From a virus: DNA of 21,418 nt. This document shows positions 560 to 19,168 of this stretch, piece by piece. The stretch spans positions 1-21,418 of the IMG/VR virus record IMGVR_UViG_3300033149_005798; one strand, written 5' to 3'. The notes below the pieces were generated by a model that saw only the letters and a list, made by a program, of their open reading frames with translations, ran no database searches and was not told where the DNA came from. Within the stretch, counting starts at the first letter, position 1. Each line of letters begins with the position of its first letter. Both the position numbers and the translations under genes were made by a program.

Positions 560-1030
560 TTATCTTCTAGTCAATTCAAGTTCTTGTATACGCTTACGCA
601 ACATTCTACATAAAGTTTCTTTATGAGCTAATTGATTAGCTTCCCTATATGCATATTTTAATAATTTAATATCAGTTATCTTATTTAATTCTTGACGAGC
701 TTTTCTAACTGGCATATAAACAATGTCTTTCACGTCCAATTCTTTCTTAACAAATGGTGATGTTAAATCAGGGCTATCTATATCAATTTGACTACCATCT
801 TCAATTTTAGAATCATTTTTAACTTCATCTTCAAAAACAATTTCCCAAACATCAGCATCTCTCAGTTTAACATTTCGTAGCCAATCCACAAACTCTTTAT
901 TTTCAGAAAGATCATGTTTTTTACCGTACTGTTCGTATAACTCATCCAATGAAACCTTTGCACCTGGACCGATAGATCTTTTAAGTGCGTGTCTCCAAAC
1001 ATTGCTTTTATTCTTAATATAACCTTTCAT
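560..1030 (-). CDS. Conserved head-module protein of unknown function
   Basis: This is a 156-residue, highly charged protein. It starts at an ATG with a strong AGGAGGA site ten bases upstream and ends about 20 bases before the next start. It has no signal peptide or membrane segment. The N-terminal 50 residues are basic and contain tryptophans (VWRHALKRS, VDWLRNVK). The middle is acidic and the C-terminal third is predicted helical with many Lys/Arg (KARQELNK, CRMLRKRIQELE). I do not recognise a family. Its place between the capsid gene region and a probable head-completion gene suggests a small structural or assembly protein. The leader upstream carries a tnpB-derived insertion remnant. Confidence 0.6.
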   Translation of the reverse strand: MKGYIKNKSNVWRHALKRSIGPGAKVSLDELYEQYGKKHDLSENKEFVDWLRNVKLRDADVWEIVFEDEVKNDSKIEDGSQIDIDSPDLTSPFVKKELDVKDIVYMPVRKARQELNKITDIKLLKYAYREANQLAHKETLCRMLRKRIQELELTRR

Positions 1031-1079: not shown

Positions 1080-1174
1080 GTGAATGCTCCCCGCAGCAAG
1101 TTGCAGGGCTTCTAGGCCAAAACTAAGCCCTGCATCCCCAGGGCCAAAATATTTTTCGCAGCGTTGACATCTCT
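1080..1174 (-). mobile_element. tnpB/omega-RNA right-end remnant, copy 1
   Basis: On the minus strand, 1174-1112 encodes a TnpB C-terminus (RDVNAAKNILALG, then MQGLVLA and a TAG stop), matching the zinc-ribbon tail typical of IS605/IS607-family TnpB. Just before and after the stop lie two hairpins also present in the copies near 8044 and 15027. One is GCCCTG...CAGGGC. The other is CCCTGCA...TGCGGGG, followed by GGAGCATTCAC, where similarity to the other copies ends. No left end or N-terminal tnpB part is visible; the upstream boundary runs into the DUF1360-like gene. In active elements this right end forms the guide-RNA scaffold. It is an immobile remnant unless something uses it in trans. 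Confidence 0.8.
1112..1174 (-). pseudogene. tnpB: TnpB C-terminal fragment
   Basis: Twenty codons plus TAG read RDVNAAKNIL ALGMQGLVLA. The RDVNAAKNIL block is the diagnostic C-terminal motif of TnpB, containing part of the RuvC-III active-site region with its Asp. In-frame sequence continues a few codons upstream (I-I-V-Y) but overlaps the end of the DUF1360-like gene in another frame. The rest of the roughly 400-residue nuclease is absent, so this cannot make an active protein. Confidence 0.8.
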
Positions 1175-1493
1175 ATAAACTATGATTAGAGTCCAACCTA
1201 TCGATAATAAAATGTAAAATATTAGATAATCTATGCAATACAATTGCCATAAAAAACAACGCCAGTATAGAAGGTAATAAACTTTTATTATATAATTTAT
1301 ACATAGCCATTATAAACATGGCAACCCATACTGACGTACAATAAGGACAATCTAAAATTTTATGTATAAGTTTAAATACCAATCGATTAGATGTAAAGCA
1401 ATACTTACGTACAGGCTCAAAAATAGCAGACTTAGATAATATATTAGTTAACGCTTCAATTAAAATCACACTAACAATTATTTTTAAAATCAT
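1173..1493 (-). CDS. Small DUF1360-like membrane protein
   Basis: This 106-residue protein has three probable membrane helices: residues 2-19, about 50-66 and about 73-92. Between the first two is the motif CPYCTSVWVA, which matches the cysteine-containing signature of the DUF1360 family of small membrane proteins found in Bacilli and their phages. The function of that family is not known. The start ATG at 1493 has a GAGGAT site and sits 2 bases from the stop of the preceding endonuclease gene, so the two are probably co-transcribed. Its last codons overlap the tnpB remnant at 1112-1174, which suggests the gene's 3' end was reshaped when the sequences were joined. Confidence 0.65.
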   Translation of the reverse strand: MILKIIVSVILIEALTNILSKSAIFEPVRKYCFTSNRLVFKLIHKILDCPYCTSVWVAMFIMAMYKLYNKSLLPSILALFFMAIVLHRLSNILHFIIDRLDSNHSL

Positions 1494-1495
1494 AA

Positions 1496-2986
1496 CTAAT
1501 CCTCTATACTATATACATATGTTCTATGACCACAATCCCATATCCTATCATATCCTTGTCTAAGTCTCAATTTAAATTCTGTCAAACCTGGTTTCCTTTC
1601 CTCAGCCGTTTTACGTAAAGATATATTTCGAAATCTTTTCCCATTCTTTATATAATGAGGAGTATATTTTGTGTAATCAATCAAATTAAAACCCACTACT
1701 TCATAAATATGATTAAAAATATTAGAATATCGCATATCACAATAAGATTTTATAGTACTTAAATTATTAAGTTTGCAGTATTCTTTTATGACTTTAAATA
1801 GTTTAGAAAATCCGCTCGCTACAGTAACATAATTTTTAGTACAAAACCTCTTTAACTCTATAACACCATCTGACGAAGTATGTTTTCTGATAACTTTACC
1901 TATACTTACTGCTTGTAATAATTGATTACTGTAAAATAACCCCCATGATTTAATCGCTTGTGTAGAACCCTGTATATGATACAACTTATAAAATTCATTA
2001 GCTTCTTCATTCGTTATCTCTTTAATATTACATTGACTAGCATAGTATTTTTTATCAATTAAATTCAAAGCTGTTAATATCCTAGACATAACTATATCAA
2101 ATTTATTATTAATTTCATCTTCAAAAACAGTTATCAAACGTATACCTTTTTTATAACACTCCATTAATTTATCATAGTGGTACGATTTAGGCGTATTTCC
2201 AGAAATTTCACTATGCCAATACAAACCACATATCTCCACAGCGATTCTATACTCTGGAAAATATAAATCCAACTCTTTAGGCGCTATCTGTCTACGGTCA
2301 CAATGAACTAATTCAAGATTTGGATAATGCTCTTTAAAATAATCTAACACTTTTTGTTCTGGTTTAGACGTATAATTATTCGACACATAACAACGAAAAC
2401 ATCTAGCTGATGCGTCCTTAAATCTATGAAATGTTGTTTCCCATTCATGCCCTTCTGGACATAACAGCTTTATAGGAGTATCATTATTAACGTATTCATT
2501 AGATAATAACTTATAGCCAAACTGTTCTACATACTCACGTACAAAATCTATAGTATGTTTGTGAAACCCTTTAGGAATATATTCTTTATCTATGTTGTGT
2601 ATCTCACGGTATTTAATTGCCTTACGTAACCTACAAAGCTCTTTATTATTTTCATAATATTTTCTATACTTAATTCGTGAATATTCTTTACCAAGCCTTT
2701 TATAAATTTTCTGGTTCTTCCTACAGATGCGTTCTTTCTCACACTCTTCTGATCCACAATAACGTTTTTTACTATAATAAGTAGTAAATTCTTTACCGCA
2801 TGCTTCACATTTTCTATGGTACTCTTTATACCCATACTTTTTTCTATTTCTACGCCTATCCCTAATTCTAGCTAATTGTTTAGTTCCTTCTTCTTTACAT
2901 TTATCAGAACAATATCTCTGATTTGGATTAATAGGTTTAAATAAGCTACCACATATTTTACAATGCTTTTTACGATAATTCACCAT
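1496..2986 (-). CDS. Vsr/EDxHD-type homing endonuclease with zinc fingers
   Basis: This 496-residue protein has two N-terminal treble-clef zinc fingers (C9-C12-C26-C30 and C60-C63-C77-C82). A third metal site follows (C176, H180, C196, C199, in LLCPEGHEW). The nuclease core from about 205 to 300 contains PKELDLYFP (E238, D240), then AVEICGLYWHSE (E251, H258) and the LITVFEDE strand. This is the arrangement of Vsr-like EDxHD homing endonucleases such as I-Bth0305I and relatives in T4- and SPO1-like phages. The C-terminal 180 residues are an additional unrecognised domain. It is free-standing, not inside an intron that I can see, and follows another homing endonuclease. The likely role is to cut genomes lacking the insertion and so spread itself. 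Confidence 0.8.
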   Translation of the reverse strand: MVNYRKKHCKICGSLFKPINPNQRYCSDKCKEEGTKQLARIRDRRRNRKKYGYKEYHRKCEACGKEFTTYYSKKRYCGSEECEKERICRKNQKIYKRLGKEYSRIKYRKYYENNKELCRLRKAIKYREIHNIDKEYIPKGFHKHTIDFVREYVEQFGYKLLSNEYVNNDTPIKLLCPEGHEWETTFHRFKDASARCFRCYVSNNYTSKPEQKVLDYFKEHYPNLELVHCDRRQIAPKELDLYFPEYRIAVEICGLYWHSEISGNTPKSYHYDKLMECYKKGIRLITVFEDEINNKFDIVMSRILTALNLIDKKYYASQCNIKEITNEEANEFYKLYHIQGSTQAIKSWGLFYSNQLLQAVSIGKVIRKHTSSDGVIELKRFCTKNYVTVASGFSKLFKVIKEYCKLNNLSTIKSYCDMRYSNIFNHIYEVVGFNLIDYTKYTPHYIKNGKRFRNISLRKTAEERKPGLTEFKLRLRQGYDRIWDCGHRTYVYSIED

Positions 2987-3008
2987 AATACAAATCCCTT
3001 AAAACACA

Positions 3009-3830
3009 TTAACTGTTACATTTAAATTTTGCCAAATTTACAAATGAACACTCATCTTTATGTGCATAAACCTTATGGCATTCTTTACAGCATGCTATAC
3101 CATTATCTGGATCTAAAGCTAAATATGGATTAATTTTCTTTGGTATTATATGGTGAGCCACTTCAGCCCTCTTACCACAATATATACATTTATAATCGTT
3201 TTTTCGTAATACTTCATTTGACCATATACGTAAATCACTTATAGTAAAATACTCATTATTCTTAATTAAACTATCAATACGTTTATTAAAAACAGTGCAT
3301 TTTCCCTTACATTCATCAGAACAGTAAAATCTAGACTCCCTAGTAATATTACCCTTAATAAACTGCGCTCTAGCTTCAACCCTTGTTCTTTTAGGTACAA
3401 ACCATTTTTTACACACTGTACATCTAACCTCTAAAATTCCATTCTTATTTCTAACCTCTTCAACCGGGATTAATTGTTCAGAATATGTATTAAATAGTGG
3501 TAAATTTTTCTCAACCACTCCACCTTTAGACATTCTTTGTTTAATTAATAATCGCTCTTTTAAACTTCTCTTATGTCCCTTTAATGACGCTGAAATTTTA
3601 TTTCGTACTTCAACACTCTTTGAAGCACATTCTTTAGAACAATATTTTGTAGGATAAGTTATACGCATAAAAAAAGCTTCGCCACATTCTTTACAAGCAG
3701 GTATAAATTTGTAATATAAATTCTTACGCCTAAAAACATCTCTGCTAGGAATATATGTATACTCGTCTAAAACCTCAAACCCATCAATATCATATTTTAT
3801 CTTCATTTTGAAGCAACCAAAGAATCCCAC
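3009..3830 (-). CDS. HNH homing endonuclease with zinc fingers and NUMOD3 motif
   Basis: The protein has 273 residues. In order it has a zinc finger (C46, C49, C64, C68), a NUMOD3-like DNA-binding helix (VRNKISASLKGHKR, 76-88), a second zinc finger (C137, C140, C170, C174) and a C-terminal HNH domain. The HNH residues are the CIYC pair (215/218), H226-H227, N243, and C248/C251 with H252. All expected HNH catalytic positions are present, so it may be active. Neither the ATG at 3830 nor the in-frame ATG nine codons in (MKIKYD, 3806) has a clear ribosome binding site, so the start is uncertain and expression may be weak. It lies directly after the capsid gene, a common intron-less homing site in phages. 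Confidence 0.85.
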   Translation of the reverse strand: MGFFGCFKMKIKYDIDGFEVLDEYTYIPSRDVFRRKNLYYKFIPACKECGEAFFMRITYPTKYCSKECASKSVEVRNKISASLKGHKRSLKERLLIKQRMSKGGVVEKNLPLFNTYSEQLIPVEEVRNKNGILEVRCTVCKKWFVPKRTRVEARAQFIKGNITRESRFYCSDECKGKCTVFNKRIDSLIKNNEYFTISDLRIWSNEVLRKNDYKCIYCGKRAEVAHHIIPKKINPYLALDPDNGIACCKECHKVYAHKDECSFVNLAKFKCNS

Positions 3831-3865
3831 ATTTTAAAGTTTTTAAACCATAAAATACACGTTTT

Positions 3866-3902
3866 TAAGTTATGCCCACGTTAAAAATGTGGGCATAACT
3901 TA
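3866..3902. repeat. Perfect 14-bp palindromic hairpin after the capsid gene
   Basis: TAAGTTATGCCCAC at 3866-3879 and its exact complement at 3889-3902 enclose a 9-base loop. It begins 9 bases downstream of the capsid stop. The stem is long enough to act as a transcription barrier or as an mRNA 3'-end stabiliser, but no T-run follows on either strand, so it is not a standard intrinsic terminator. It separates capsid from the HNH gene and could also mark the junction of the inserted DNA. Confidence 0.7.
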
Positions 3903-3911
3903 TTGAAATTA

Positions 3912-4982
3912 CTACAATGATCTATCAATTACTCCAAGACCTAACATCCTTGGGTCTAAAATTGCAAAACCACACTCTTGCCATCCAAAAAACCCTTGCT
4001 TTTGTACACGAAGTAAAGTCGGATCATCGTAAGCTTCATACTCTTTCCTAATAGGCATCACCAATGAATCATTCACACTCAGATCAAAACCAATAATCTG
4101 AGTTTCACCTAAAGTACTAACAGTACCATCGGCAGCTGTAATATTAGGATTATCAAGTTTATAAGCATTAAAATTATTAGATCCATCAGCTATAAATTTA
4201 CCATAAGCTGAACCATTTCCATTAATATTATACAAACCAGTTGCTCCTAAATGTTGCACCTCGTGCAATGTCACATTCCAAATAGATCCCATACCAGCAG
4301 CCTGAAAAATTTCCCTTCTAGTAACGGGGTCAATATCAGTGTCGGTCCATTCACGGATATCAGCCGCATCTTCAGGTGAAACATAAAGATCGGTCAATGT
4401 TCTACCTATCCGTTTAAATCCAACAATCATTTTATTGATCAATTCTTTAGACAAATACCCAGCACCAGTAGATGCAGGATTAATTTCATAAATAGGAGCA
4501 GGCCTAGAACCTAATAAACCTTTACCATGGAAATTAGAAGTAGCAGCCGGTATAATAACCCGCCAACCACACTCTTCTTCATAATCAGCAATAGCCTTAG
4601 CAGCTTTTTCGGCAGCCCTGGCTGGTATATCGATCCTAGAATCTCTAGCATAACTAAGTTTCCAATCGCCAGAAGCATCAATACTAAAAGTAGGCACGTA
4701 GACTTCTTCCCCTATACCTTCAATAAAATTCTGAGCAACATAACCAAGTCCTGGCAATACCCACACCGGAATTTCAAAATCCTCCGCTACTGGATAAGAC
4801 GCTTGTGCCCCAGGACCAAGCCTCTCAACAGTAAACAACTGTCGCATAATAGACTGACGCTCAATAGCTTGAAGGATAGGAGTAGTTAAAGCTGCCGCAA
4901 AAGCCTTATAAGCCATTAAACCCTCAGGGGTATTAATAGCAGCTGTAGCTTTAAACAATTCTCTCATTTCTCTCTCATCCAT
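3912..4982 (-). CDS. Major capsid protein
   Basis: With the start at ATG 4982 the protein has 356 residues (MDEREMRELF...). This start has GAGGAGG nine bases upstream. An in-frame GTG at 5021 would add 13 residues but has no ribosome binding site. The protein is balanced in composition with long helical N-terminal stretches, then a mixed alpha/beta body ending in GFFGWQECGFAILDPRMLG, as expected of an HK97-fold capsid subunit. It follows prohead protease, scaffold and a small structural gene, the classical order. The role rests mainly on size, fold-like pattern and position. It was probably the most strongly expressed gene here, given its leader hairpin and strong site. The N-terminus could be trimmed by the protease encoded at 6917-8014. 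Confidence 0.85.
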   Translation of the reverse strand: MDEREMRELFKATAAINTPEGLMAYKAFAAALTTPILQAIERQSIMRQLFTVERLGPGAQASYPVAEDFEIPVWVLPGLGYVAQNFIEGIGEEVYVPTFSIDASGDWKLSYARDSRIDIPARAAEKAAKAIADYEEECGWRVIIPAATSNFHGKGLLGSRPAPIYEINPASTGAGYLSKELINKMIVGFKRIGRTLTDLYVSPEDAADIREWTDTDIDPVTRREIFQAAGMGSIWNVTLHEVQHLGATGLYNINGNGSAYGKFIADGSNNFNAYKLDNPNITAADGTVSTLGETQIIGFDLSVNDSLVMPIRKEYEAYDDPTLLRVQKQGFFGWQECGFAILDPRMLGLGVIDRSL

Positions 4983-4990
4983 ATTTAACA

Positions 4991-4997
4991 TCCTCCT
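4991..4997 (-). promoter_or_regulatory. Ribosome binding site fixing the capsid start
   Basis: GAGGAGG on the minus strand lies nine bases before ATG 4982. It is inside the frame that would be used if translation began at the GTG at 5021, so it argues for the shorter 356-residue capsid protein. Confidence 0.75.
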
Positions 4998-5006
4998 CAA
5001 TAGTTT

Positions 5007-5035
5007 AGGATGCGCAATCACAGCGCATTAATCCT
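5007..5035 (-). promoter_or_regulatory. Hairpin in the capsid gene leader
   Basis: On the minus strand ATGCGC at 5028-5023 pairs with GCGCAT at 5015-5010. The stem is extended by AGG/CCT after a four-base bulge, and the loop is seven bases. It ends about ten bases before the capsid ribosome binding site and begins just after the stop of the preceding gene. There is no T-run, so it may be an RNA-processing or stability element rather than a terminator. No protein binding is implied by the sequence. Confidence 0.45.
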
Positions 5036-5045
5036 ACAAATTATA

Positions 5046-5621
5046 TTACTTCAAAAGTTTAACTCTAATAGGATATAAAGTAGTGTTATTCTCATTAGCA
5101 GTTACTTGAGCAGAAGAAGCGCCTTTAAGCACAATAGCAACAGATTTATTAGACGTTCTACTATTCATATCACCGCTTTGCCCAGTAAGCTCTGACATAC
5201 TGTTTTTTCGCACCCCTAAAATAGTGCCAGCATTCAAAGCATTACCGCCATTATTATAATGAATTGTATCCCAAATACCTAAATGCGCAACGCCAACAGG
5301 AGCTGGCTTAGTACCAACAATCCTACCATTGTTATTATATTTAGGTTGGGCAATAACATCAGATGATCCAAGATCGCCTGGAAGAACAAATCCTACAGGA
5401 TGTATTGAATGGTATCCAGCTTTAACTTTCTGCATCAAAAATCCAAAACATTCCTTATCTTCATCAGCTGCAAAAATTTTAACAGTTGAATCAACCTGTC
5501 CATCATCTAAATAACACGCAGCACCAGCATACGCTAACACATCACCCGTACCGCCTGAAATAGTAGTTTCTGCAAACTGACAAAATTGATTTTCTACAAC
5601 AGGATGTCTAGGAATAAACAT
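5046..5621 (-). CDS. Probable minor structural or capsid-decorating protein
   Basis: This 191-residue protein is rich in Gly, Ala, Asn, Val and Thr, with little predicted helix, which points to a beta-rich structural protein. It has two cysteines near residues 14 and 36 and a Lys-rich tail (PIRVKLLK). The start has a very strong AAGGAGGA site, consistent with high expression. It lies between the scaffold and major capsid genes, where many phages encode a capsid cement, decoration or stabilising protein. I do not recognise the family by sequence; the role is positional inference. A non-capsid structural protein is an alternative. Confidence 0.55.
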   Translation of the reverse strand: MFIPRHPVVENQFCQFAETTISGGTGDVLAYAGAACYLDDGQVDSTVKIFAADEDKECFGFLMQKVKAGYHSIHPVGFVLPGDLGSSDVIAQPKYNNNGRIVGTKPAPVGVAHLGIWDTIHYNNGGNALNAGTILGVRKNSMSELTGQSGDMNSRTSNKSVAIVLKGASSAQVTANENNTTLYPIRVKLLK

Positions 5622-5653
5622 AATTACGGTTCCTCCTTAATAATATTTTACTA

Positions 5654-6403
5654 TTACTTCTTTTCAAAACGCTGGGCTAACGCCTCGCCTAATTTCTTAT
5701 ATTTACTTAACATATCCTCGTTAGGCACAGCATTTAAATTTAATAATGATGCTACAGCATGCATTGTGTCATAAGATGCTACATCCACATCATCATCAGA
5801 TGCTGTATCAGGTGTGGCTACGTCTGGCGCATCAGTTTGTGTATCACTATTTACAGCCTTATTGTCATCTGATACAGTGTTAGTTTTATCTGTAGTAGCA
5901 TTTTGCTCTAACTGTGCCAACAACTGATCACGTAATTCAATTCTTTCTTGTTTATAAGCAGCAAACTCTTCATCACTCATTTCCCTTAACTTAGCCAATT
6001 GAGCTTCTTTAGCATCATCAGTAGAAGCAGCTACAGTTTCAGCTTCAAGTTCGGCAAAACGAGCTCTAGCTAACTGATCCTTCTTCATACTTTCCAACTC
6101 TTTTTCAGCCTCTTCAGCCCTTTTAACCAATCCTTCTTTTTCGGATTCAAAAGTTGCTTTTTCTTCATTCAATTCTTTAACTTTCTCAGTTAATTCTGTT
6201 ACGGTCTTCTCTAATTCTTCCACAGAGGCCATCAATTGAGTAACTTCCTCGTCTTTCGCCTCCAAAGATGCCGTCAACTCAGTAATTTTTTCAGCTGATT
6301 GAGTTAATGCTTCTTCAGTTTCCTTACGCATAGCAGCTTCTTCTTGCTGTTTAAAAATAGCGTCTACAATTTCTTTAACCTCTTGAACTAATTTATCAGG
6401 CAT
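5654..6403 (-). CDS. Capsid scaffolding protein
   Basis: This 249-residue, Glu/Lys/Ala-rich, acidic protein has an almost unbroken heptad pattern from about residue 5 to 165, for example ITELTASLEAKDEEVTQL and VKELNEEKATFESEKEGL. An Asp/Thr/Ser-rich linker follows, then a short C-terminal helical region with basic residues (YKKLGEALAQRFEKK). A coiled-coil rod with a small basic C-terminal domain, encoded between the prohead protease and the capsid gene, is the standard layout of a head scaffold. The basic tail would bind the inner surface of the capsid subunit, and the protein is probably digested by the protease at 6917-8014 during maturation. The start has an AAGGAGG site. Confidence 0.85.
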   Translation of the reverse strand: MPDKLVQEVKEIVDAIFKQQEEAAMRKETEEALTQSAEKITELTASLEAKDEEVTQLMASVEELEKTVTELTEKVKELNEEKATFESEKEGLVKRAEEAEKELESMKKDQLARARFAELEAETVAASTDDAKEAQLAKLREMSDEEFAAYKQERIELRDQLLAQLEQNATTDKTNTVSDDNKAVNSDTQTDAPDVATPDTASDDDVDVASYDTMHAVASLLNLNAVPNEDMLSKYKKLGEALAQRFEKK

Positions 6404-6429
6404 GAAACTAAACCTCCTTAATTGATCTT

Positions 6430-6459
6430 AATATAGCCAACCTCGTTTAATAAAAACAA
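6430..6459 (-). promoter_or_regulatory. Possible weak sigma-A promoter before scaffold gene
   Basis: The 90-base gap upstream of the scaffold gene is the largest in the head module not filled by an insertion. On the minus strand it contains TTGTTT (6459-6454), an 18-base spacer and TATATT (6435-6430), about 26 bases before the scaffold start. The -10 box is good and the -35 box poor. In AT-rich DNA such matches arise by chance, so this is only a candidate for boosting scaffold and capsid expression. Confidence 0.2.
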
Positions 6460-6493
6460 ATAAAAACTACAAACCTTTTCCTAGTCCAATTCA

Positions 6494-6898
6494 TTACTTT
6501 CTATTCCAAATTTGATTAGAATCCTCAGCAGTATACTCTACACCACTGCCCATAAACACTAAAACATCAAATTCAGCATCATCACTTGCAGCGGCAGTAG
6601 ACACTATCTTAACCACATTATTTACATCGTTCTTATCGATATAAAAGGTCAAATTAGCAGCAGTAGCTGATAATGGTGTAGCCAACACATGTCCATCAGC
6701 TACTTTATGCTCATTAAATTCTACTCCGCTGGACACTACAACTTCAGTAGTGCCGGATGCCAACGTTACTGTAGCACCCCACAAAAATGGTACCCGCCTA
6801 CCATTGCCAAGATTTTTATACAACACAGCTTCCCCATCACCGGCATTAACTCGTACCACTTTTGGGATACTTCTTGATTTTAAAATTGCTTGTGGCAT
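6494..6898 (-). CDS. Small beta-rich structural protein of the head module
   Basis: This 134-residue protein has a basic N-terminus (MPQAILKSRSIPK) followed by repeated Val/Thr/Ala strands and no helical stretches, resembling Ig-like or head-decoration folds. Examples are the segments GATVTLASGTTEVVVSSGV and NLTFYIDKNDVNNVVKIV. It has no cysteine, signal peptide or membrane segment. It sits between prohead protease and scaffold, with a GGAGGA site seven bases from its ATG. A decoration, head-fibre or other virion protein is likely from composition and place. The family is not recognised. Confidence 0.5.
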   Translation of the reverse strand: MPQAILKSRSIPKVVRVNAGDGEAVLYKNLGNGRRVPFLWGATVTLASGTTEVVVSSGVEFNEHKVADGHVLATPLSATAANLTFYIDKNDVNNVVKIVSTAAASDDAEFDVLVFMGSGVEYTAEDSNQIWNRK

Positions 6899-6916
6899 AA
6901 GCGTTCCTCCATTTCA

Positions 6917-8014
6917 TTAACTATTTTTTAATAAAGCCTTCAACTCTGCTAAAAGATTGCCTCGTTTATCTCTAGCAGATACGGCTTCCATTTTAGTATT
7001 TGTATAATCTTTAGTTATCTCAATAATTTTACGTCGCAAACAATCAGGATGCGTAGCTTCACGTGACGGAGAAGTACAAGCTCTATCATATAACATACAC
7101 CAATCTTCATGCAAAACTTTTACGTCTGGGCCTTCATATGTAGCATCAATTACACGCTTTTTATAGCTCACGCACACACCAATAGACGTTTGATTAAGCA
7201 CGTCCCGTCCATTAAGACCGCCTGGATCAGTAGACGGGCTGTTAAACTCTTGCGCCTTATCTTTACCAACATTATCCAAATCTATTATTAATTCGTTCGC
7301 CCCATCTAACTTGTTTGCAGTTTCGAGAATTAATGATCGCGGATTAGCGGGATTTTTAACTAAACCACATCCAGAAAACAACAAATTCCTAAGAACTTTG
7401 GTAACCTTACCGCTGGCCACTTCAGTTCCATTTTTAATTATTTTAGCAGCTTTACCAAAAACACTTTCGTCAAGTAAGCCTAAAGCTTCCGCTTCTTTTC
7501 TAGGTAAAATCGTAGAGCCTATTTTCACATCATAATCTTGATAATATGTTTCCATCGACAATTTCCATTTATTGTCTTTAACCTCTTTAGCTAGCTCAGG
7601 AAAACGGCTCTTATATAAAATACCGCCTATTAAAATATCCAAACTCATTCTGTTTAATTCTGCAATATTTTTATTTCTAAGCTCTTCTATGTCTAATTTA
7701 TTCCCTTCTTGATCTATAATTGAACATGAATAAATATGCCCAACTATTTCAGATTCATCGTGTTCTATATCCAATGCCTTATTTGGTATAGTAGCGTACG
7801 CCTTAACTAATTCTTCTGGTAAAAAATAACTTTTATTCAAATTTTCACCTGACGACACAAATATACCAGTAAAAAACAACAAATCAGGTGTTTTATTTTC
7901 AGGCAAATCCACAACAGACGCTACTTCTTGTAAAAGTTCGTCAGTTTCTTCAACTAATTCTATCTGCGCCTCAATTTCTATCGGTTTGTCCTTATAAGAA
8001 TTATCTCGCTTCAT
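6917..8014 (-). CDS. Prohead (capsid maturation) serine protease
   Basis: This 365-residue protein has a protease core from about 45 to 225. It contains FFTGIFVSSGENLNKSYF, then a likely catalytic His in LDIEHDES (H85) followed by VGHIYS, and a likely catalytic Ser in KLSMETYY (S153). The His-to-Ser spacing of 68 residues and the ending FSGCGLVKNPANP fit the herpesvirus-like or T4 gp21/HK97 U9-S78 type of prohead protease. The C-terminal 130 residues hold a Cys-rich segment (GVCVSYKK, WCMLYDRACTSP, HPDCLRRK) that might bind metal and is unusual for the family. It would digest scaffold and trim capsid before DNA packaging. The start has AGGAGC. A tnpB-derived element ends about 30 bases upstream. 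Confidence 0.75.
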   Translation of the reverse strand: MKRDNSYKDKPIEIEAQIELVEETDELLQEVASVVDLPENKTPDLLFFTGIFVSSGENLNKSYFLPEELVKAYATIPNKALDIEHDESEIVGHIYSCSIIDQEGNKLDIEELRNKNIAELNRMSLDILIGGILYKSRFPELAKEVKDNKWKLSMETYYQDYDVKIGSTILPRKEAEALGLLDESVFGKAAKIIKNGTEVASGKVTKVLRNLLFSGCGLVKNPANPRSLILETANKLDGANELIIDLDNVGKDKAQEFNSPSTDPGGLNGRDVLNQTSIGVCVSYKKRVIDATYEGPDVKVLHEDWCMLYDRACTSPSREATHPDCLRRKIIEITKDYTNTKMEAVSARDKRGNLLAELKALLKNS

Positions 8015-8043
8015 TTTAAGCTCCTAAAATTAATTCTTTTAGT

Positions 8044-8255
8044 GTGAATGCTCCCCACAGCAAACTGCGGGGCTTTTAGGCCGAAGCCAAGCCCTGCATC
8101 CCCAGGGCCAACCAAGCAAATTTACGGTCTTCAAGGAAATGATTGTAAAGCCAGCGTTTTCATAGTGTTTATACTATACAAACTATCGTTCTAAAAACAA
8201 GGTGTTTTAACCATTCAGCCCCTCACTAAAGTGAGAGGTTTTCTGGTTGGGAATT
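8044..8255 (-). mobile_element. Miniature IS605-type element (PATE-like), copy 2
   Basis: This 212-bp element seems to have both ends. On the minus strand it starts after TTTAT (8260-8256) with AATTCCCAACCAG and an imperfect left-end hairpin at 8219-8238 (CTCACT/AGTGAG core, one mismatch). An ATG at 8163 followed by AAAAC marks the tnpB start. Sequence then jumps to CTGGCTTTACAATC, and again from AAATTTGCTTGG to the tnpB 3' end LALGMQGLASA and TAA. It ends with the right-end hairpin CCCCGCA...TGTGGGG and GGAGCATTCAC. It fills the space between portal and prohead protease. Taking it out would leave portal stop and protease start about 40 bases apart, as elsewhere in the operon. It has no transposase, so would have moved in trans. 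Confidence 0.8.
8219..8238 (-). repeat. Left-end subterminal hairpin of copy 2
   Basis: CTCACT at 8222-8227 pairs with AGTGAG at 8230-8235, extended by CC/GG beyond one mismatched A. Imperfect subterminal hairpins like this are the site bound by single-strand Y1 transposases (TnpA) in IS200/IS605 elements. The other two copies do not have it. Confidence 0.65.
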
Positions 8256-8262
8256 ATAAATG

Positions 8263-10197
8263 TTATCTATACGATTTAGAAAAAAACCCTTCTAAAACTG
8301 CATTAAATTGCTCTTCATTTAAATTAGATTTTAGTATAGTTAAAACATCATATACATTAGCAGTTTGACTTTGTGGAGCAGGTTGTTGGCTAGGTGCTTG
8401 ATTAGGAACTTTAGCTTTTGGTTTAGTATTTTTACTTTTTGGTTTTGCTACTTTTCCCTTAGGCCTACCAGCAGAAGGTGCACCAGTTGGTTCCCCCTGT
8501 TTAGGCTGTACCAACGGACCAACTCCCATTTTAGCCTGCTGAAACGGACTACCAATAATACCAAAAATTCCATCCAATACCATAGGTAACTCGTCTTCCA
8601 TATTCGCTGATTCAGTCGGAAAATCAAATCCTAATTCTTCCAACGCTGTTCTATAAGAAAGCATTCTACGATCTACTAACTGTGAAATTGTACTCATATA
8701 AAGAATAATATCCCTAAGTATAGTATTATCCCACCTAACTCTAGGAAATCTATCAAAACCCATAGCTTCTGCTATTTGTCTATATTCTTTATAAATCCAT
8801 CTTTCAACCAACCTACGTGCATAATTAATTTCTTCTATAACAGCTTTAACTATTAAACCAGCTTCAGCAGTATTTACGTTCTGCGTACCATCTATCAATG
8901 CTCTAGACATAGCAATGGCACCAGTAATATCTTCATTAACCTGAGCATATTTATCTTGTCCTAAAATACTCTCAATTTCAGGAGAAACTATCTTTTCTAT
9001 CTTTAATGTATGATTCCATACTACATCAAAAGATTTTGAAGGCGTGTTAAATAATTGAGCGACTGCCTCTAATTGGCTTTGATCAGTACATGGATATTCA
9101 TCGTTACCTACAGTAATCTTAAGAATATAATTAGAAATACCGTCTAATGTACTTAAATCAGCTTCCCTCAATGCTTTTTTATATTCTAGTGACTCAAAAG
9201 CTTTAATGCCTCTAGGTTTAGAATAAAGCTCATACGGCTGTTTTCTATAGTCTATTTCTCCAACAAAAAGAGGGTCAAGTTCAATCTTACCTTTTTCAGC
9301 CTGTTTTTTAAAATCGGTTGGTAACAGCTTTAAAATTAATTTCTCATCGTCAGTTAATTCAGATGCAGGTTTTTGCAATAATTTTTTAAGCTCATCAGAT
9401 GCATCTAAAATTACTTTACTTTTATTAAACAATAAACTTCCTTCTAATGTTACCAATAAGGGGTTTAAAATAGTATAGGCTATAGGCATATAGCCTTTTG
9501 ACCATATCTTCTTCTTTGCCGATAATTCATACTTAATAAATCTATCTTCAAGTTTACGCCCATCTAATTCTTTAAGTCTTTTATTAATAATCCTTAATTT
9601 CTGTTGCCTAACTCGTTCAGCTTTCTCGCCAAATTCTTTTAATAAAGCACGCTCTTTCTTCTTCCCAGGAATGTTTGATAAATAACTTACACCAGGCTCA
9701 TACTTACCAATAATTTTATAAGTTCTAACCATGCCAACACGAAATAAATCAAAAAATATCCAATCTAAAACTTCGTGAAATCCAACATCAAAATTCCAAA
9801 CGTCATAAAATAATTTTATTTCTGGATCATCAATATCATTCTCAAATCCTTTAGACGCAAAATTGGATAAAATGTCTATATGTGCACCATAAACATCAAA
9901 TTCATAATAATACTTAATTGCATCTTTATAAAGCTCTTTTGGATCTTTATTGCTAGGCGACGTTTTTATCAAATCTAAAGAAGAGCGGCTTATCGTGTCT
10001 CTCTTAATCATAGAAGCCTTATCAAATCGAAGATGCCCAACCTTATCAGACGGTAAGCCGGCTAAAACTCTGTTATTAGGCGTCAAATAAAAAGTCGATT
10101 GTCCTGTTTTCTCATCCACCTCAATACTTTTAATTCCCAAATCTGGATATCGTTCTTTCAATATAGTTGTTATATTCTCTAATTTATTGTTTTCCAT
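8263..10197 (-). CDS. Portal protein
   Basis: From the ATG at 10197 the protein has 644 residues. This start has GGTGGA five bases upstream. An in-frame ATG at 10212, which overlaps the preceding stop as ATGA, would add five residues (MMVDY) and cannot be excluded. Size, place between terminase and protease, and helical segments such as YYEFDVYGAHIDILSNF near the N-terminus and RWIYKEYRQIAEAMGF near residue 480 fit a dodecameric portal. The last 70 residues are low-complexity, rich in Pro, Lys and Gln (KPKSKNTKPKAKVP, QQPAPQSQ), probably a flexible tail, followed by a short helix. It forms the DNA entry channel, docks the terminase and nucleates head assembly. The family call is from size and context more than motif. 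Confidence 0.8.
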   Translation of the reverse strand: MENNKLENITTILKERYPDLGIKSIEVDEKTGQSTFYLTPNNRVLAGLPSDKVGHLRFDKASMIKRDTISRSSLDLIKTSPSNKDPKELYKDAIKYYYEFDVYGAHIDILSNFASKGFENDIDDPEIKLFYDVWNFDVGFHEVLDWIFFDLFRVGMVRTYKIIGKYEPGVSYLSNIPGKKKERALLKEFGEKAERVRQQKLRIINKRLKELDGRKLEDRFIKYELSAKKKIWSKGYMPIAYTILNPLLVTLEGSLLFNKSKVILDASDELKKLLQKPASELTDDEKLILKLLPTDFKKQAEKGKIELDPLFVGEIDYRKQPYELYSKPRGIKAFESLEYKKALREADLSTLDGISNYILKITVGNDEYPCTDQSQLEAVAQLFNTPSKSFDVVWNHTLKIEKIVSPEIESILGQDKYAQVNEDITGAIAMSRALIDGTQNVNTAEAGLIVKAVIEEINYARRLVERWIYKEYRQIAEAMGFDRFPRVRWDNTILRDIILYMSTISQLVDRRMLSYRTALEELGFDFPTESANMEDELPMVLDGIFGIIGSPFQQAKMGVGPLVQPKQGEPTGAPSAGRPKGKVAKPKSKNTKPKAKVPNQAPSQQPAPQSQTANVYDVLTILKSNLNEEQFNAVLEGFFSKSYR

Positions 10198-10208
10198 ATA
10201 ATCCACCA

Positions 10209-10568
10209 TCATGTCTTATCCATAGGGGTCATATCATCATTTTTCTTTTTCCAAACCTGTGCCACTTGAAACGTCCCTTTAAGACCCATAATAATTCCCA
10301 AAATAGATGCAAACTGAATATTTGTTATCTTCCCTAAATATAATAAAACCGTAATTAAACCTATAATCCAAATCTTAACAGAAATAAACTGAGCAAACAA
10401 TTTCTGAAACCATAAATCCCAATATTCATTTTTACAAATAAAATAACCACGTGAACGTAAAGGCTTGTCTTTAAAATATTGTAAATCCTCATCAATTTTT
10501 TTCTCTAACTCATCTATTCTTACAGAAATCTTTTCTTGTATTTCTTCAATATTAACTTCACTCGACAT
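10209..10568 (-). CDS. Small two-helix membrane protein between terminase and portal
   Basis: This 119-residue protein has an N-terminal heptad-like helix (residues 5-33). Two membrane helices follow (about 60-78, VKIWIIGLITVLLYLG, and about 84-102, IQFASILGIIMGLKGTF) and the tail is basic (WKKKNDDMTPMDKT). The start has GGAGAC six bases upstream. Its stop overlaps the longer candidate portal start as ATGA, implying translational coupling. Two helices with a charged tail resemble a holin, but there is no lysin next to it and the location is unusual. A membrane anchor for head assembly is another possibility. The function is unknown. Confidence 0.6.
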   Translation of the reverse strand: MSSEVNIEEIQEKISVRIDELEKKIDEDLQYFKDKPLRSRGYFICKNEYWDLWFQKLFAQFISVKIWIIGLITVLLYLGKITNIQFASILGIIMGLKGTFQVAQVWKKKNDDMTPMDKT

Positions 10569-10619
10569 ATTAAGTCTCCATATAGATAGTTCTCTATTAT
10601 TAATAGTTAGTTAATTTTA

Positions 10620-13600
10620 CTATTTCTGTTTTAACAAAGCTCCATCAAAACTATTTCCTTTATAGTTAGATATATTAAATTTAGCACCAACTTGGTGCGG
10701 CCTCACCAATCCTGTAGCACTTAATTGTTTAACTGGTTCTTGTTGTTTACGACTCACTTCTTTAATGCCCCACGCAGCTAAAACTAGAGCTGAATACAAA
10801 TCTTTGTTTTGATCTTTTTTAGGAGTATCAAAGTGTGCTACTCCACGAGAAGTTTGTGTAACCACTATATTAACAAGTTGTGATTTTAATGTTTTAACCT
10901 CATCATAAATTTTCTCCGCTCTAGGGTCAGCAGACAATGGTAATTCAGGAAACAATAAATTTTTATTTTCTAACAACGCTAACAAATTAAAGTTTGCATC
11001 AGATATCCATTGAGATGTTGGATTTATTAAATGTAAAATTCTTTTACCCTCTAGATGAGTGTTGTGCTTATCATCCACATCTAAAATTTTAACGTTATTA
11101 TCATAACCTTCTTGTAATAAGTCTCTCCATGCCTTACCCCCACCCATTGAATCCATAAAAACACCTATTATATTAAACGACTTCAATAGCTCATAAATTT
11201 TTAATACATTTGCCTGCGTAGTTTTTTCATGTGCTCCTTCGACATACACAACACGATGTGGCGGGCCTATTTCAAGAATAACCAAACCAGCAGCAGCTCT
11301 TCCAGCTTGGTTTGGATCTACCCCTAATATATATTTACCTTCTCTATGCCCTCTAGATATAACAGTAAAACCAGTTTTAGTGCTGCATTCTTCTATTAAT
11401 GATGCCTTAAAAAATCCACTACTATCAGAAACCATAGCAGCTTCATATTCCATCATAAATTCAATAGTTGACATAGTACGTTTTGCCTCTTTAATATTCT
11501 CCTCATCCAGAAACCCTTTTGGTAATAACTTATAAGAAACTTGATGGACAGCATATTTATTATCTTCCCCCTCTTCAATTGCCTTCCAATAAGATTTCAT
11601 CCTTTCCCACATATGGTTAAATTTAAAATAACCAGAAGAAGTCATTATCATTTTATTAGCCATATTATCAATAAAATCTTCCTCGCTTGCTAAACCTAAT
11701 TCTATTAATTCGCGCTGACGTTCTAATTCACGAACTCTTTGCATAGGTTCTAATGTTACAGCTGCCATCGGCCTAACAACTAGATCTATTATTTCAGCCG
11801 GCATTTGAGCCAATTCATCTATTTCAATAAGATAAAACCTAGATCCTCTAATCTTAGCGCCATCAACACCAACAGGCAATGCTTCTATATAACTACCATT
11901 AGTTCTATCTGTACCCTTAAATTGTAAATAACAAATATCAGCCCCTCTTACAGGCTTCTTTTCTGTCGCTTCTCTAACTATTGAAGATCTTCTATATAAT
12001 TTTTCTATTTCAGAAAAAATCATTTTAGAATTATGATTGATAAACCCATTACACCAATATACGTCTTCAGCATCAACCTCAATATCTATAGTATCAGCAA
12101 TAAAGTATTCTTTATCAATAACTCTAATAAAATAAAAATTATATCTAACTATATCATCAAAAATATAATATTCACTACATTTAAAGTTATGTTCATCAGC
12201 AATATTTAATAGTTCTTTAATTTGATGTTTAGAAAAATTAGTCTTTTTATAAAACTTATCTTTACTAATTAATTCAAATTTATCGATACCAATACCTTTA
12301 GCTAACTTATCAACAAACTTATTCCCGATAACAAATGAATCTGGTATTGTGTTATTATACGCGGGTTTTACTAAACTCTTTATATACTGCAATAATCTAT
12401 CCTGTTTTCTACTTAAATTAAATCCAATCTCATTATAAAACTTTTTAATATTATCAGTACCATTAATACATAATTTATATATTTTCTTACAATTAACCTT
12501 TTTACCTTGTATCTCTCCAACACAAGCGTCTGATTTGGTAGTTAACGAAGATAATATGCCAAAATTAAGCAACACTGCCTGCAATACTCTGCATAACGCC
12601 TCACTAGTAGATACATATTCTATAGTACATGATTTATATTTATCATTATCTATTACATAACAACACCCATCAGTATCATATAGGCCTCTTAAAAACCACT
12701 TCCACCTTTCTTTGCTACATTTGTACAAAACACTAGGAATTATTTTATCAGACGCTGTCTTATCTGACATTCCAAAAGATTTAAACAATTCCCATAACTT
12801 TTTATTGTATATTTCAGCTGCCCAAGTATTATCTCCTCTTTTTCTAACAGTAACGTTTAAATCAAACAATCTACGCATTATTTCAACAAATGTATCTATA
12901 ACTTCTTTATCAGCATTATACAGACAGATAGTATAAGATCTATGTTTTAACCGCTCATTTTCTATATAACCGTCACCACAAATTAATCCTAAACAATAAG
13001 CCAAGTCGTTAGTAATTATTGTATCTTCAACAGAATCCTCAACAAACTGCTGCATTCCTAATCTTAATACTATATAATCATTTTCACTTATATTTTTCAG
13101 TCCTTTATAAATAAAACTGTTACCGTCCCAAACTAGAACTTTATGGTTTTCATCGCCTTCTAACTCAAATCCTTTTTCACACTTTAACCGTACACAATTC
13201 CTATCATAATTAATCCATTTATTACTAATTTGATTAAACTCTCTTAATGAAAAAATACTATCCCCAACATCAATTACATTATTAAGTTCGTTAGTAGAAC
13301 ACACTAACCCTTTTGATGTTATAAAAACAAATACTTTATCAGACAAAACGAGGCATTGGCGAAAAGACGGGGCTATTAGACCTATTCTATAACCAGGATA
13401 TAATAATGCGTGTAATAATGCATTTACACCTAATAAAAATGTATTATGATTTATAAAACCATTCGAAAAATAATTAGGTTCTATATTATTAGGCATTTCT
13501 AATTCAAAATCATAACAATCTCCTTCCCAATCCTCAATACTAGCTACCTCATCTAAAAAATAATCTTTAATGCCATATCCAGATATCACATTTACAGCAT

Positions 13601-14495
13601 CATTCCTAATTACTAATTTATATTTACCATCAAACCGCTCTAAACTAGCAATGATGCCAAAATTTAACAACATAAGCTGAATTACAGATAATACATTATA
13701 TGAATTAACTATATATATGCTATCTTTATCTTCACGTTCCGATACTTCAAAAAACCCACTTAAAAACATACTTATAACATCAGCACTGGAAGAGCGTATT
13801 ATTTTAGGTACAAAAATAAATGGTTTGGTATATTTATCCAACCCATATTTATATAAAATATCGCCAGCTTTAACACTATAAAAAACATCTTTATCTCCAC
13901 CTACTATTTTACCTAATATATAAGCGTCTTCCAATGATATATTAGTTTTACCAAATACATTACTCCCCCGCTGCAGGCACACTAAATCGCCAATCTCAAA
14001 TTCATCTAACCGTTTAAAAACAAACTTGCCGTTTTTATCTATAGTTAACAAACGATGATGGTTACTTCCTTTATTTACAAACCCATACTTTGTAACCAAC
14101 CTTTTACCTTTAATTCCCTTTTCCAAACTCAAATATTTAGTTTTAACAAACCCTTCACTACTATAAATTTCATTTTCAAATTTAATTACATCATCCTCTC
14201 CGCTACGTAAATATGAAGGTATACTAGGCAATGCCTCATGTAGATACATTAACCCAACATCTTTAAAATAAACTAAGCTATCAACTGATTGGCTTTTACC
14301 AAAACCTCTTGAAGCAACAGTAATAACAAAATTCCTAAACCACATATCACGAAGCACAATTCTCTGTATAGGTGCTAAATCAACGTTTAACAAATCTATA
14401 GCAGCTATGACAGGGTCATTCCTATAAAACTGTATTAGCTCTGTGCCTCTATCTAATAATAGTTCTAAATCATCGTAATCGTCTACTTTAATCAT
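10620..14495 (-). CDS. terL: Large terminase subunit (ATPase-nuclease) interrupted by two inteins
   Basis: The precursor has 1291 residues; without its two inteins the terminase is 565 residues, normal for the family. Joining residues 1-67, 352-380 and 823-1291 restores a Walker A (ASRGFGK+T), then GLIAPSFRQ+SKMIF. Further motifs are Walker B with catalytic Glu (FYLIEIDE, 887-894), the coupling motif MTSSG (951-955) and the RNase H-like nuclease aspartates D1060 (GVDPN), D1115 (FMDSMGGG) and D1232 (KDLYSALVLA). It drives DNA into the prohead through the portal and cuts concatemers. The start is two bases from the small-terminase stop and has only a distant AGGTGA site, so translation is probably coupled. 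No packaging ATPase can form until the first intein is removed, because it splits the P-loop. Confidence 0.95.
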   Translation of the reverse strand: MIKVDDYDDLELLLDRGTELIQFYRNDPVIAAIDLLNVDLAPIQRIVLRDMWFRNFVITVASRGFGKSQSVDSLVYFKDVGLMYLHEALPSIPSYLRSGEDDVIKFENEIYSSEGFVKTKYLSLEKGIKGKRLVTKYGFVNKGSNHHRLLTIDKNGKFVFKRLDEFEIGDLVCLQRGSNVFGKTNISLEDAYILGKIVGGDKDVFYSVKAGDILYKYGLDKYTKPFIFVPKIIRSSSADVISMFLSGFFEVSEREDKDSIYIVNSYNVLSVIQLMLLNFGIIASLERFDGKYKLVIRNDAVNVISGYGIKDYFLDEVASIEDWEGDCYDFELEMPNNIEPNYFSNGFINHNTFLLGVNALLHALLYPGYRIGLIAPSFRQCLVLSDKVFVFITSKGLVCSTNELNNVIDVGDSIFSLREFNQISNKWINYDRNCVRLKCEKGFELEGDENHKVLVWDGNSFIYKGLKNISENDYIVLRLGMQQFVEDSVEDTIITNDLAYCLGLICGDGYIENERLKHRSYTICLYNADKEVIDTFVEIMRRLFDLNVTVRKRGDNTWAAEIYNKKLWELFKSFGMSDKTASDKIIPSVLYKCSKERWKWFLRGLYDTDGCCYVIDNDKYKSCTIEYVSTSEALCRVLQAVLLNFGILSSLTTKSDACVGEIQGKKVNCKKIYKLCINGTDNIKKFYNEIGFNLSRKQDRLLQYIKSLVKPAYNNTIPDSFVIGNKFVDKLAKGIGIDKFELISKDKFYKKTNFSKHQIKELLNIADEHNFKCSEYYIFDDIVRYNFYFIRVIDKEYFIADTIDIEVDAEDVYWCNGFINHNSKMIFSEIEKLYRRSSIVREATEKKPVRGADICYLQFKGTDRTNGSYIEALPVGVDGAKIRGSRFYLIEIDELAQMPAEIIDLVVRPMAAVTLEPMQRVRELERQRELIELGLASEEDFIDNMANKMIMTSSGYFKFNHMWERMKSYWKAIEEGEDNKYAVHQVSYKLLPKGFLDEENIKEAKRTMSTIEFMMEYEAAMVSDSSGFFKASLIEECSTKTGFTVISRGHREGKYILGVDPNQAGRAAAGLVILEIGPPHRVVYVEGAHEKTTQANVLKIYELLKSFNIIGVFMDSMGGGKAWRDLLQEGYDNNVKILDVDDKHNTHLEGKRILHLINPTSQWISDANFNLLALLENKNLLFPELPLSADPRAEKIYDEVKTLKSQLVNIVVTQTSRGVAHFDTPKKDQNKDLYSALVLAAWGIKEVSRKQQEPVKQLSATGLVRPHQVGAKFNISNYKGNSFDGALLKQK
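12030..13355 (-). other. Intein 2 in large terminase, intact LAGLIDADG endonuclease
   Basis: This intein covers residues 381-822 of the precursor (442 residues), inserted between GLIAPSFRQ and SKMIFSEI. It starts with Cys381 (CLVLSDKVFVF) and ends in WCNGFINHN with Ser823 as the +1 nucleophile; the penultimate His and terminal Asn are present. The block B region is GDENHKVLVW with H451. Two well-formed LAGLIDADG motifs, LAYCLGLICGDGY (acidic D508) and FLRGLYDTDG (D607, D609), indicate a potentially active homing endonuclease. All splicing residues are present, so it should splice. Confidence 0.92.
13443..14294 (-). other. Intein 1 in the large terminase P-loop, degenerate endonuclease
   Basis: This intein covers residues 68-351 of the precursor (284 residues). 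It starts with Ser68 (SQSVDSLVYF, matching the block A pattern S1...D5-x-L-V) and ends SNGFINHN with Thr352 at +1. The ligated junction reads GFGK-TFLL, a proper Walker A, which fixes Ser68 rather than Gln69 as residue 1. Block B is GSNHHRLL (H146/H147) with Ser in place of the usual Thr. The endonuclease part is worn: AYILGKIVGGDKD and FLSGFFEVSE stand where LAGLIDADG motifs should be, and the second lacks its acidic DxDG end. It probably still splices but may no longer cut DNA. Confidence 0.9.
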
Positions 14496-14497
14496 GA

Positions 14498-14995
14498 TTA
14501 ACTATCAATATCACCTTTATTACCTTTAAAAAATTTTGATTTTTCTCTCTTTAATTTTTCCTCTTCTTCCTTTAATTTTTTAGCTTTATCATACATTTCA
14601 GCCTTTTTATCTATATCAAAACGAACTGCTAAATCAACTATAGATAGTCCAGAATGCTTTTTAGGGTCTATTCTATCTCTACGCCGCGCTGCCAAATTTT
14701 CTTTTAATTTTTCCGTTTGCTTACGTAACCTCTCCACTGCCGCAGAAATTTCTAAATGTCTAGTAGGATCTTCTTTACTAGTTTTTAAAAGCCTCATTTC
14801 TAAAACTTTATTCATAGCAATGCCCATTAAATCATCCATATCATGAGCACTTAACTGTTTTTCATCAAAATCATTCAAATAAACACTGATTAAACCTTCA
14901 TACATTTCACGTTCGTCTTTATCAAATATCTCATCAACAGGAAGATATTTTTTTAACATATCTTTTATTTCTGGCGGTTTTCTAGGCCTTCCCAT
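14498..14995 (-). CDS. terS: Small terminase subunit
   Basis: This 165-residue protein begins MGRPRKPPEI, an AT-hook-like basic start that also occurs in phage small terminases. A helical region with acidic and hydrophobic stretches follows (residues 20-70). A long charged coiled coil comes next (about 85-125, AAVERLRKQTEKLKENLAARRRD), and the protein ends in a Lys/Glu-rich helix (MYDKAKKLKEEEEKLKRE). The central coiled coil would form the oligomer and the ends would contact DNA and the large subunit. Identification comes from size, pattern and position two bases before terL. The ATG has AAAGGAC six bases upstream, and the leader is occupied by a tnpB-derived remnant. Confidence 0.75.
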   Translation of the reverse strand: MGRPRKPPEIKDMLKKYLPVDEIFDKDEREMYEGLISVYLNDFDEKQLSAHDMDDLMGIAMNKVLEMRLLKTSKEDPTRHLEISAAVERLRKQTEKLKENLAARRRDRIDPKKHSGLSIVDLAVRFDIDKKAEMYDKAKKLKEEEEKLKREKSKFFKGNKGDIDS

Positions 14996-15026
14996 AAAAT
15001 TGTCCTTTTATATAATATAGTTATGT

Positions 15027-15270
15027 GTGAATGCTCCCCACAGCAAGCTGCGAGGCTTCTAGGCCGGAGCCAAGCCCTGCATCCCCAGGGCCAACCAAGC
15101 AAATTTACGGTCTTCAAGAAAGCGATTGTAAAGCCAGCGGCAAGCATCCAAAGTCTGATTCAATTTCCTGATTTGTGCCTTGCTCGGAAAAAGCCTATAT
15201 TTAAATGTTTTTTCATAGTGTTTATACTGTACAAACTATCGTTCTAAAAGATAAGATGTTTTAATGATTG
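15027..15270 (-). mobile_element. Internally deleted tnpB element, copy 3
   Basis: On the minus strand similarity to copy 2 begins near 15270 (TTAAAACATCTTAT, then TTTTAGAACGATAG). It runs through a tnpB start region (ATG at 15216), a 49-codon in-frame tnpB N-to-C fusion ending at TAG 15061-15059, the hairpins GCCCTG...CAGGGC and CCTCGCA...TGTGGGG, and GGAGCATTCAC. The left-end hairpin found in copy 2 is missing, so this copy looks immobile. It occupies the leader of the small terminase gene; only about 30 bases separate its right end from the terminase ATG. Confidence 0.85.
15059..15208 (-). pseudogene. tnpB: TnpB N-terminal/C-terminal deletion fusion
   Basis: The frame reads TFKYRLFPSKAQIRKL, NQTLDACRWLYNRF and LEDRKFAW, which is the classic TnpB N-terminus. 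It then joins LALGMQGLAPA and the stop, the TnpB C-terminus, leaving out about 300 central codons. The frame is unbroken for 49 codons, but the ATG at 15216 is out of frame by two bases. Six A residues follow it, where copy 2 has four, and four would restore MKTFKYR. No other in-frame ATG, GTG or TTG start is seen nearby. It lacks all RuvC catalytic residues and cannot be a nuclease. Confidence 0.85.
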
Positions 15271-15274
15271 CTTT

Positions 15275-15365
15275 TTTCTGCATGGAAGGTGTAAGGATTT
15301 TAATTATTATCAAAAAGACAGCAAGACGGCTTACACTATGTGTTGGGCCTCACCTTTAAAAAAGG
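15275..15365 (-). other. Unexplained intergenic sequence with competing stems
   Basis: This is the remaining gene-free stretch between copy 3 and the upstream gene. GTGTAAG (15336-15330) pairs with CTTACAC (15295-15289). Alternatively AAGGTG (15356-15351) pairs with CACCTT (15291-15286). The two pairings share three bases, so they cannot both form fully. A TCTTTTTGAT run follows the middle. I recognise no known riboswitch or small RNA class. Confidence 0.3.
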
Positions 15366-15381
15366 AAAACCAATACAAAAT

Positions 15382-18949: not shown

Positions 18950-19168
18950 TTATTCAGGAACAACTTCTTGTGCTTGTATTCCTTTTTCAGTCTCTACAAG
19001 CTTAAAAGTTACTTTCTGACCAGGCTTCAACGTTTTATAGCCATTCATAATAATATAAGAATAATGTGTAAAATACTCGTTCTTATCATCACCATCCTTA
19101 ATTATAAAACCATACCCACGTTCTGAAGAAAACCACTTCACAACCCCACTAACTCTATCATCTGCCAT
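18950..19168 (-). CDS. Cold-shock-domain nucleic-acid-binding protein
   Basis: This 72-residue protein is the full length of a single cold-shock domain. It has VKWFSSERGYGFI, which contains RNP1, then DEKNEYF-type RNP2 in the form EYFTHY where CspA has VFVHFS, then LKPGQKVTFKLVE and the closing strand GIQAQEVVP. The RNP2 motif is less canonical than in host CspA proteins: Val-Phe-Val-His is replaced by Tyr-Phe-Thr-His. CspA-type proteins bind single-stranded RNA and DNA and melt secondary structure. Here it may serve translation or antitermination of phage transcripts. The start has AGGAGG. Confidence 0.88.
   Translation of the reverse strand: MADDRVSGVVKWFSSERGYGFIIKDGDDKNEYFTHYSYIIMNGYKTLKPGQKVTFKLVETEKGIQAQEVVPE

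Follow-up and report, generated by a model that had tools for sequence, protein, structure and literature searches.

Three protein-less IS200/IS605-type elements with an intact predicted omega-RNA core in a phage head operon, probably hitch-hiking mini-elements

The OMEGA literature mentions stand-alone IscB omega-RNAs as well as PATEs that carry omega-RNAs. Core-deleted IS605 derivatives without any protein (PATEs, terminal-only elements) were described in Haloquadratum walsbyi; they have near-terminal palindromes, one of them (HqIRS71) retains tnpB C-terminal sequence, and PATEs are thought to be mobilised in trans (PMC3119063). The three elements described here, found in the window (the whole stretch of DNA analysed, an IMG/VR record of 21,418 nt, G000), are likewise probable core-deleted IS605 derivatives that encode no protein, and the earlier note's suggestion that they represent something not described was therefore too strong. 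They differ from PATEs in lying in a phage late operon, in the lack of a left end in copy 1, and in retaining the whole omega-RNA core with its pseudoknot, the 2011 PATE paper (PMC3119063) predating omega-RNA. They resemble the omega-RNA (reRNA) of ISDra2 in the scaffold formed from the tnpB 3′ end and the right end, in stem 1 and the hairpin, in the pseudoknot with the 3′ end of the right end, and in the position of the flank as a guide (PMC8612924, PMC10097598). Unlike ISDra2, they have no tnpB in cis, their probable TAM is TTTAT instead of TTGAT, and the stem-1 loop is short, at 6 nt. In the TnpB gene drive of plasmids (PMC11870625), the shared logic would be the cutting of sites that lack the insertion, but there TnpB is encoded on the element itself, whereas the window copies would need it in trans. 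Phage TldRs, which are TnpB-like RNA-guided repressors (PMC13418256), are also a case of TnpB-derived RNA guides in phages; however, TldR is a phage-encoded protein, while the window copies are RNA only. We consider it quite probable that non-autonomous, PATE-like mini-elements of the IS200/IS605 type, which lost tnpB and kept the omega-RNA unit, inserted recently at the three sites.

The operon, including the three copies, is encoded on the minus strand, and every copy terminates in GGAGCATTCAC. The earlier reading of three tnpB/omega-RNA remnants with a common right end is confirmed by the repeats themselves and by an independent covariance model, which was derived from ten other viral elements with the window left out; scanning the window, the model found only these three sites, each at full length (E 2.2e-11, 9.6e-11 and 4.9e-10). 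A 115-nt repeat (D1) is present in all three copies, with identities to copy 2 of 94% for copy 3 and 62% for copy 1, and a further 40 nt (D3) are common to copies 2 and 3 at 98% identity. The right-end motif GAAGCC...GGGGAG...TTCAC is common to the copies, to TnpB-linked viral elements and to Desulfosarcina, with the variant AAAAGCC in copy 2. The claim that the copies lie close upstream of gene starts in the direction of the operon also holds, the distances from the right end to the next start codon being 49, 29 and 31 nt for copies 1, 2 and 3, all three co-directional. The copies have no match in Rfam at the gathering threshold, and copy 3 as a DNA query gave none in phage and plasmid collections. 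The same phage has a second, longer record (G001, 67,051 nt), with 99.97-100% identity wherever the two overlap; position 1 of G001 falls exactly inside copy 2, as expected if assemblies of this phage break at the repeat. Both records are fragments of the phage genome.

Table 1. Coordinates of the three copies, their parts and the genes downstream of them in the window.
Feature	Position	Strand	Remark
Copy 1	1080..1174	-	Right end of IS200/IS605 type that keeps the final 20 tnpB codons (RDVNAAKNILALGMQGLVLA, then stop); no left end
TTTAT directly 5′ of copy 1	1175..1179	-	Probable target motif/TAM; relative L013 has it at the homologous site
Copy 1 omega-RNA stem 1 and loop	1126..1145	-	GGCCCTG-GGGATG-CAGGGCT
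Copy 1 right-end hairpin and CATTC	1082..1108	-	CATTC predicted to form the pseudoknot with the loop of stem 1, including one G-U
Copy 2	8044..8255	-	Core-deleted mini-element in which the left-end hairpin is followed by N-terminal and the last 11 codons of tnpB and then by the right end
TTTAT directly 5′ of copy 2	8256..8260	-	Probable target motif/TAM
Copy 2 left-end hairpin	8219..8238	-	CCTCTCAC-TTTA-GTGAGGGG; the 77-nt left end has a folding z of -2.6
Copy 2 omega-RNA stem 1 and loop	8090..8109	-	
Copy 2 right-end hairpin and CATTC	8046..8072	-	CATTC as pseudoknot partner
Copy 3	15027..15255	-	Core-deleted mini-element, deletion junction as in copy 2; left boundary uncertain
Copy 3 conceptual TnpB remnant	15062..15205	-	37 N-terminal and 11 C-terminal codons fused; not in frame with the ATG that shortly precedes them
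Copy 3 omega-RNA stem 1 and loop	15073..15092	-	
Copy 3 right-end hairpin and CATTC	15029..15055	-	CATTC as pseudoknot partner
Extra 126 nt	15256..15381	-	Separates the NUMOD3 gene from what is recognisable of copy 3; relatives lack it
156-aa gene	560..1030	-	Downstream of copy 1
Putative prohead protease gene (by position)	6917..8014	-	Downstream of copy 2
Putative small-terminase gene (by position)	14498..14995	-	Downstream of copy 3

The anatomy of the copies is not uniform. Both ends are present in copy 2, copy 1 consists of the right end only, and in copy 3 no left end can be recognised. Copy 1 begins at RDVNAAKNIL right behind TTTAT and has no N-terminal part of tnpB; lacking a left end, it could be what decay has left of a complete element, as opposed to a mobile unit. 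In copy 3, an ATG and a frameshifting A-run are followed by FKYRLFPSKAQIRKLNQTLDACRWLYNRFLEDRKFAW (37 N-terminal TnpB codons), which passes directly into LALGMQGLAPA (the last 11) and a stop. The N-terminal part of this remnant matches Pfam HTH_OrfB_IS605 (PF12323; E 2.6e-12) and the NCBIfam model guided_TnpB (E 4.9e-7). Copy 2 has the same junction plus one more deletion, and the identity of the tnpB junction implies that one core-deleted form gave rise to both. The sharing of TnpB C-terminal codons, as first noticed, thus stands for the last 11 codons in copies 2 and 3, but the longer stretch is confined to copy 1, and N-terminal codons are kept in copies 2 and 3 as well. TTTAT precedes copies 1 and 2; none was seen at copy 3, and the comparison included no identical empty site. 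The extra segment ahead of copy 3 matched nothing in any of the loci compared.

Related phages mostly have shorter leaders at the corresponding places. The gaps that hold the copies measure 386 nt in the window versus 14-82 nt in 32 relatives, 248 nt versus mostly at most 117 nt in 61 relatives (the portal-protease gap exceeding 120 nt in 13), and 142 nt versus 18-62 nt in 59 relatives. The element was absent, by profile, from all 80 related loci. The covariance model that matched the three window sites gave, among 51 related records, no match besides the second record of the same phage. The DUF1360 leader of the closest relative (L013) carries TTTAT at the site of copy 1. Since relatives with the same gene order have mostly short leaders, in which no copy was found, the three are, on sequence comparison, recent insertions of something from elsewhere.

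All three copies keep the omega-RNA core, namely stem 1, the pseudoknot between its loop and the right end, and the right-end hairpin. In viral elements, stem 1 has 7 bp and a 6-nt GG loop and lies inside the last tnpB codons. It covaries at 7/7 pairs, in the TnpB-linked and TnpB-less sets alike. The proportion of paired cells in stem 1 was 95.5% in TnpB-less and 96.3% in TnpB-linked elements against about 54-56% in shuffles, percentages that are inflated by the choice of the hairpins for pairing, the two-sided changes being the point. In the pseudoknot, the last five bases of the loop pair with five bases of the right end, those just before its terminal AC. The pseudoknot covaries across the family. 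Counting G-U, it is perfect in 32 of 39 TnpB-linked elements (9.8 expected from shuffling) and in 21 of 25 TnpB-less ones (8.9 expected), and in each window copy 5/5 pairs are predicted, including one G-U. The folding energy of the copies is ordinary for their composition (z 0.6 to -1.5); such single-sequence z-scores are uninformative, and it is covariation that argues for a structure. The predicted fold is thus intact in all three copies, and the proposed arrangement of an omega-RNA scaffold followed by the gene leader in the place of a guide is borne out at the sequence level in each of them.

The orientation of the copies, to which the earlier note had attached meaning, carries little weight, since comparable elements are oriented at random. 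If orientation were random, three of three co-directional copies would occur with p = 0.125. A general co-orientation of such elements with the downstream gene was rejected, the counts of same and opposite orientation, by a simple ORF heuristic, being 21 and 24 for full-length TnpB-linked elements and 18 and 18 for the 36 scoreable TnpB-less ones. Random orientation, which had been named beforehand as speaking against a functional reading, is thus what comparable elements display.

TnpB is usually, though not obligatorily, encoded in cis with an omega-RNA. By PF07282, no TnpB was found in either record of this phage, both being fragments, and none at the family cut-off in 50 related records; no TnpA was found in the 24 records tested, which included both of this phage. 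Among 84 related loci, there was no guide target at up to 3 mismatches of 16. Homing against known relatives is thus not supported, no sampled target being closer than 4 mismatches in 16. The element pattern had no match in GTDB contigs, and of 186 pattern matches in a peptide scan (P0001) of GTDB, 0 were confirmed, so that these scans revealed no autonomous relative, host, or source of TnpA or TnpB. A role of the copies for the phage is not supported by these results.

We propose that a TnpA acting in trans, from the host or another element, would move these short elements behind TTTAT by peel-and-paste, and that the packed head operon would tolerate them at intergenic sites only. Late-operon read-through would then yield RNAs with the omega-RNA core and the gene leader as the guide, and if a matching TnpB were present in trans, it could take up these RNAs and cut the same sites where they lack the element. 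The copies are most likely tolerated passengers, which need not serve the phage; in other words, they are probable hitch-hiking mini-elements and not a proven new phage device. An unlikely alternative is that the RNAs function as trans guides: they would arm a TnpB, supplied by the host or by a co-infecting element, against phages without the insertion, so that carriers gain from a homing or gene-drive effect. The intact core in all three copies is consistent with this, as are the precedent of IS+ plasmids, for which TnpB acts as a gene drive (PMC11870625), and the sufficiency of a 116-nt scaffold for ISDra2 (PMC10097598). However, no TnpB was found in either record and the guides match no sampled relative, and in copies as young as these the preservation of the core may just reflect lack of time. 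If trans use were true, whether a phage may replicate would depend in part on the TnpB of the host, and tiny transposons would spread TnpB guides in the manner of spacers. If the RNAs are not so used, the copies show how IS200/IS605 elements decay in phages, leaving ends that can be mistaken for regulatory RNA. What began as a vague remnant is, on either account, a defined and testable object, a protein-less TnpB element with an intact predicted guide-RNA fold.

The strong co-directional hairpins 29-49 nt ahead of the start codons could also suggest leader RNA structures that tune the expression of the downstream capsid genes. We regard this as highly improbable, as no relative that shares the gene order has the copies, comparable elements have no orientation preference, and the folding energies are ordinary. 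The origin of copies 2 and 3 by recombination or duplication within the phage, and not by transposition of a core-deleted element, would account for their common junction, for their divergence of only 6% and for phage records without TnpA; but a left-end hairpin and TTTAT belong to copy 2 itself, and the flanks of the two copies differ on both sides, which makes this origin distinctly unlikely. Transposed mini-elements remain our preferred reading.

When viral contigs were scanned for the right-end pattern, 49 TnpB-linked and 45 TnpB-less distinct copies were obtained, by our own classification. The TnpB-less ones do not look like stumps left at random. Stem 1 is kept in 31 of the 45 TnpB-less copies (about 69%), against 11% of control windows, and in most of those that keep it the tnpB homology stops 0 to about 25 codons upstream of stem 1, out of about 370; five TnpB-less copies have longer truncations or frameshifts instead. 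The retention of stem 1 and the position of the deletions would both be expected of trans guides, but the pattern would be given by selection for the guide RNA or by a deletion bias towards hairpins or short ends. A sigma-70-like site with at least 10/12 matches lies just upstream in six families of TnpB-less elements. Promoter-like sites were present in 7/45 of these elements versus 1.8% of random windows, a strong enrichment, but one that was spotted by eye before testing and that reaches only p = 0.01-0.03 against intergenic windows. On the relevant strand of window copies 2 and 3, nothing convincing as a strong promoter of their own was seen. It is doubtful, albeit conceivable, that guide-only elements are widespread in phages, each consisting of an omega-RNA gene, in some cases with its own promoter, and the ends, with TnpA and TnpB supplied in trans and selection keeping exactly the scaffold; the window copies would then be one instance, feeding a host TnpB against phages without the insertion.

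Several individual elements of this set deserve mention. Promoter-like sites just upstream of stem 1 (for example, TTGACT-17-TATAAT and TTGACA-17-TATTAT) occur in L149, L222, L229, L116, L123 and L130. Paired, near-identical TnpB-less right ends lie in L174 (2364-2399 and 5939-5974) and L197 (93-127 and 1054-1088), where mini-elements are apparently multiplying in phages. L237 contains, at about 13500-13676, a clean mini-element of less than 200 nt, with a left-end hairpin fused to NAAINI codons, the omega-RNA core and the right end.

The names of the neighbouring head genes, as used in the earlier note, derive from position. Neither the 156-aa protein nor the putative small terminase matches anything in PHROG or Pfam, the putative protease has only a weak match to a PHROG of unknown function, and the major head protein had no match among named phages. 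The gene order itself is kept in dozens of related viral contigs, running from the NUMOD3 gene through the putative small terminase, large terminase, portal, putative protease, major head protein and DUF1360 genes to the 156-aa gene.

Further features of the window are likewise on the minus strand. The 1291-aa large terminase (10620-14495) is split by two apparent inteins with LAGLIDADG domains (by Pfam, Intein_splicing and two LAGLIDADG_3 stretches), one or both of which are missing in many relatives. Homing-endonuclease-like genes are located at 1496-2986 (a 496-aa homing endonuclease), 3009-3830 (HNH) and 15382-15789 (NUMOD3 motif); the former two recur in some relatives only, between the head protein gene and DUF1360. 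Near the head genes, a reading of the letters alone suggests a cold-shock-domain-like protein (18950-19168), an actin/ParM-like ATPase (19194-20186) and a ClpP-like fragment (21070-21414), again on the minus strand.
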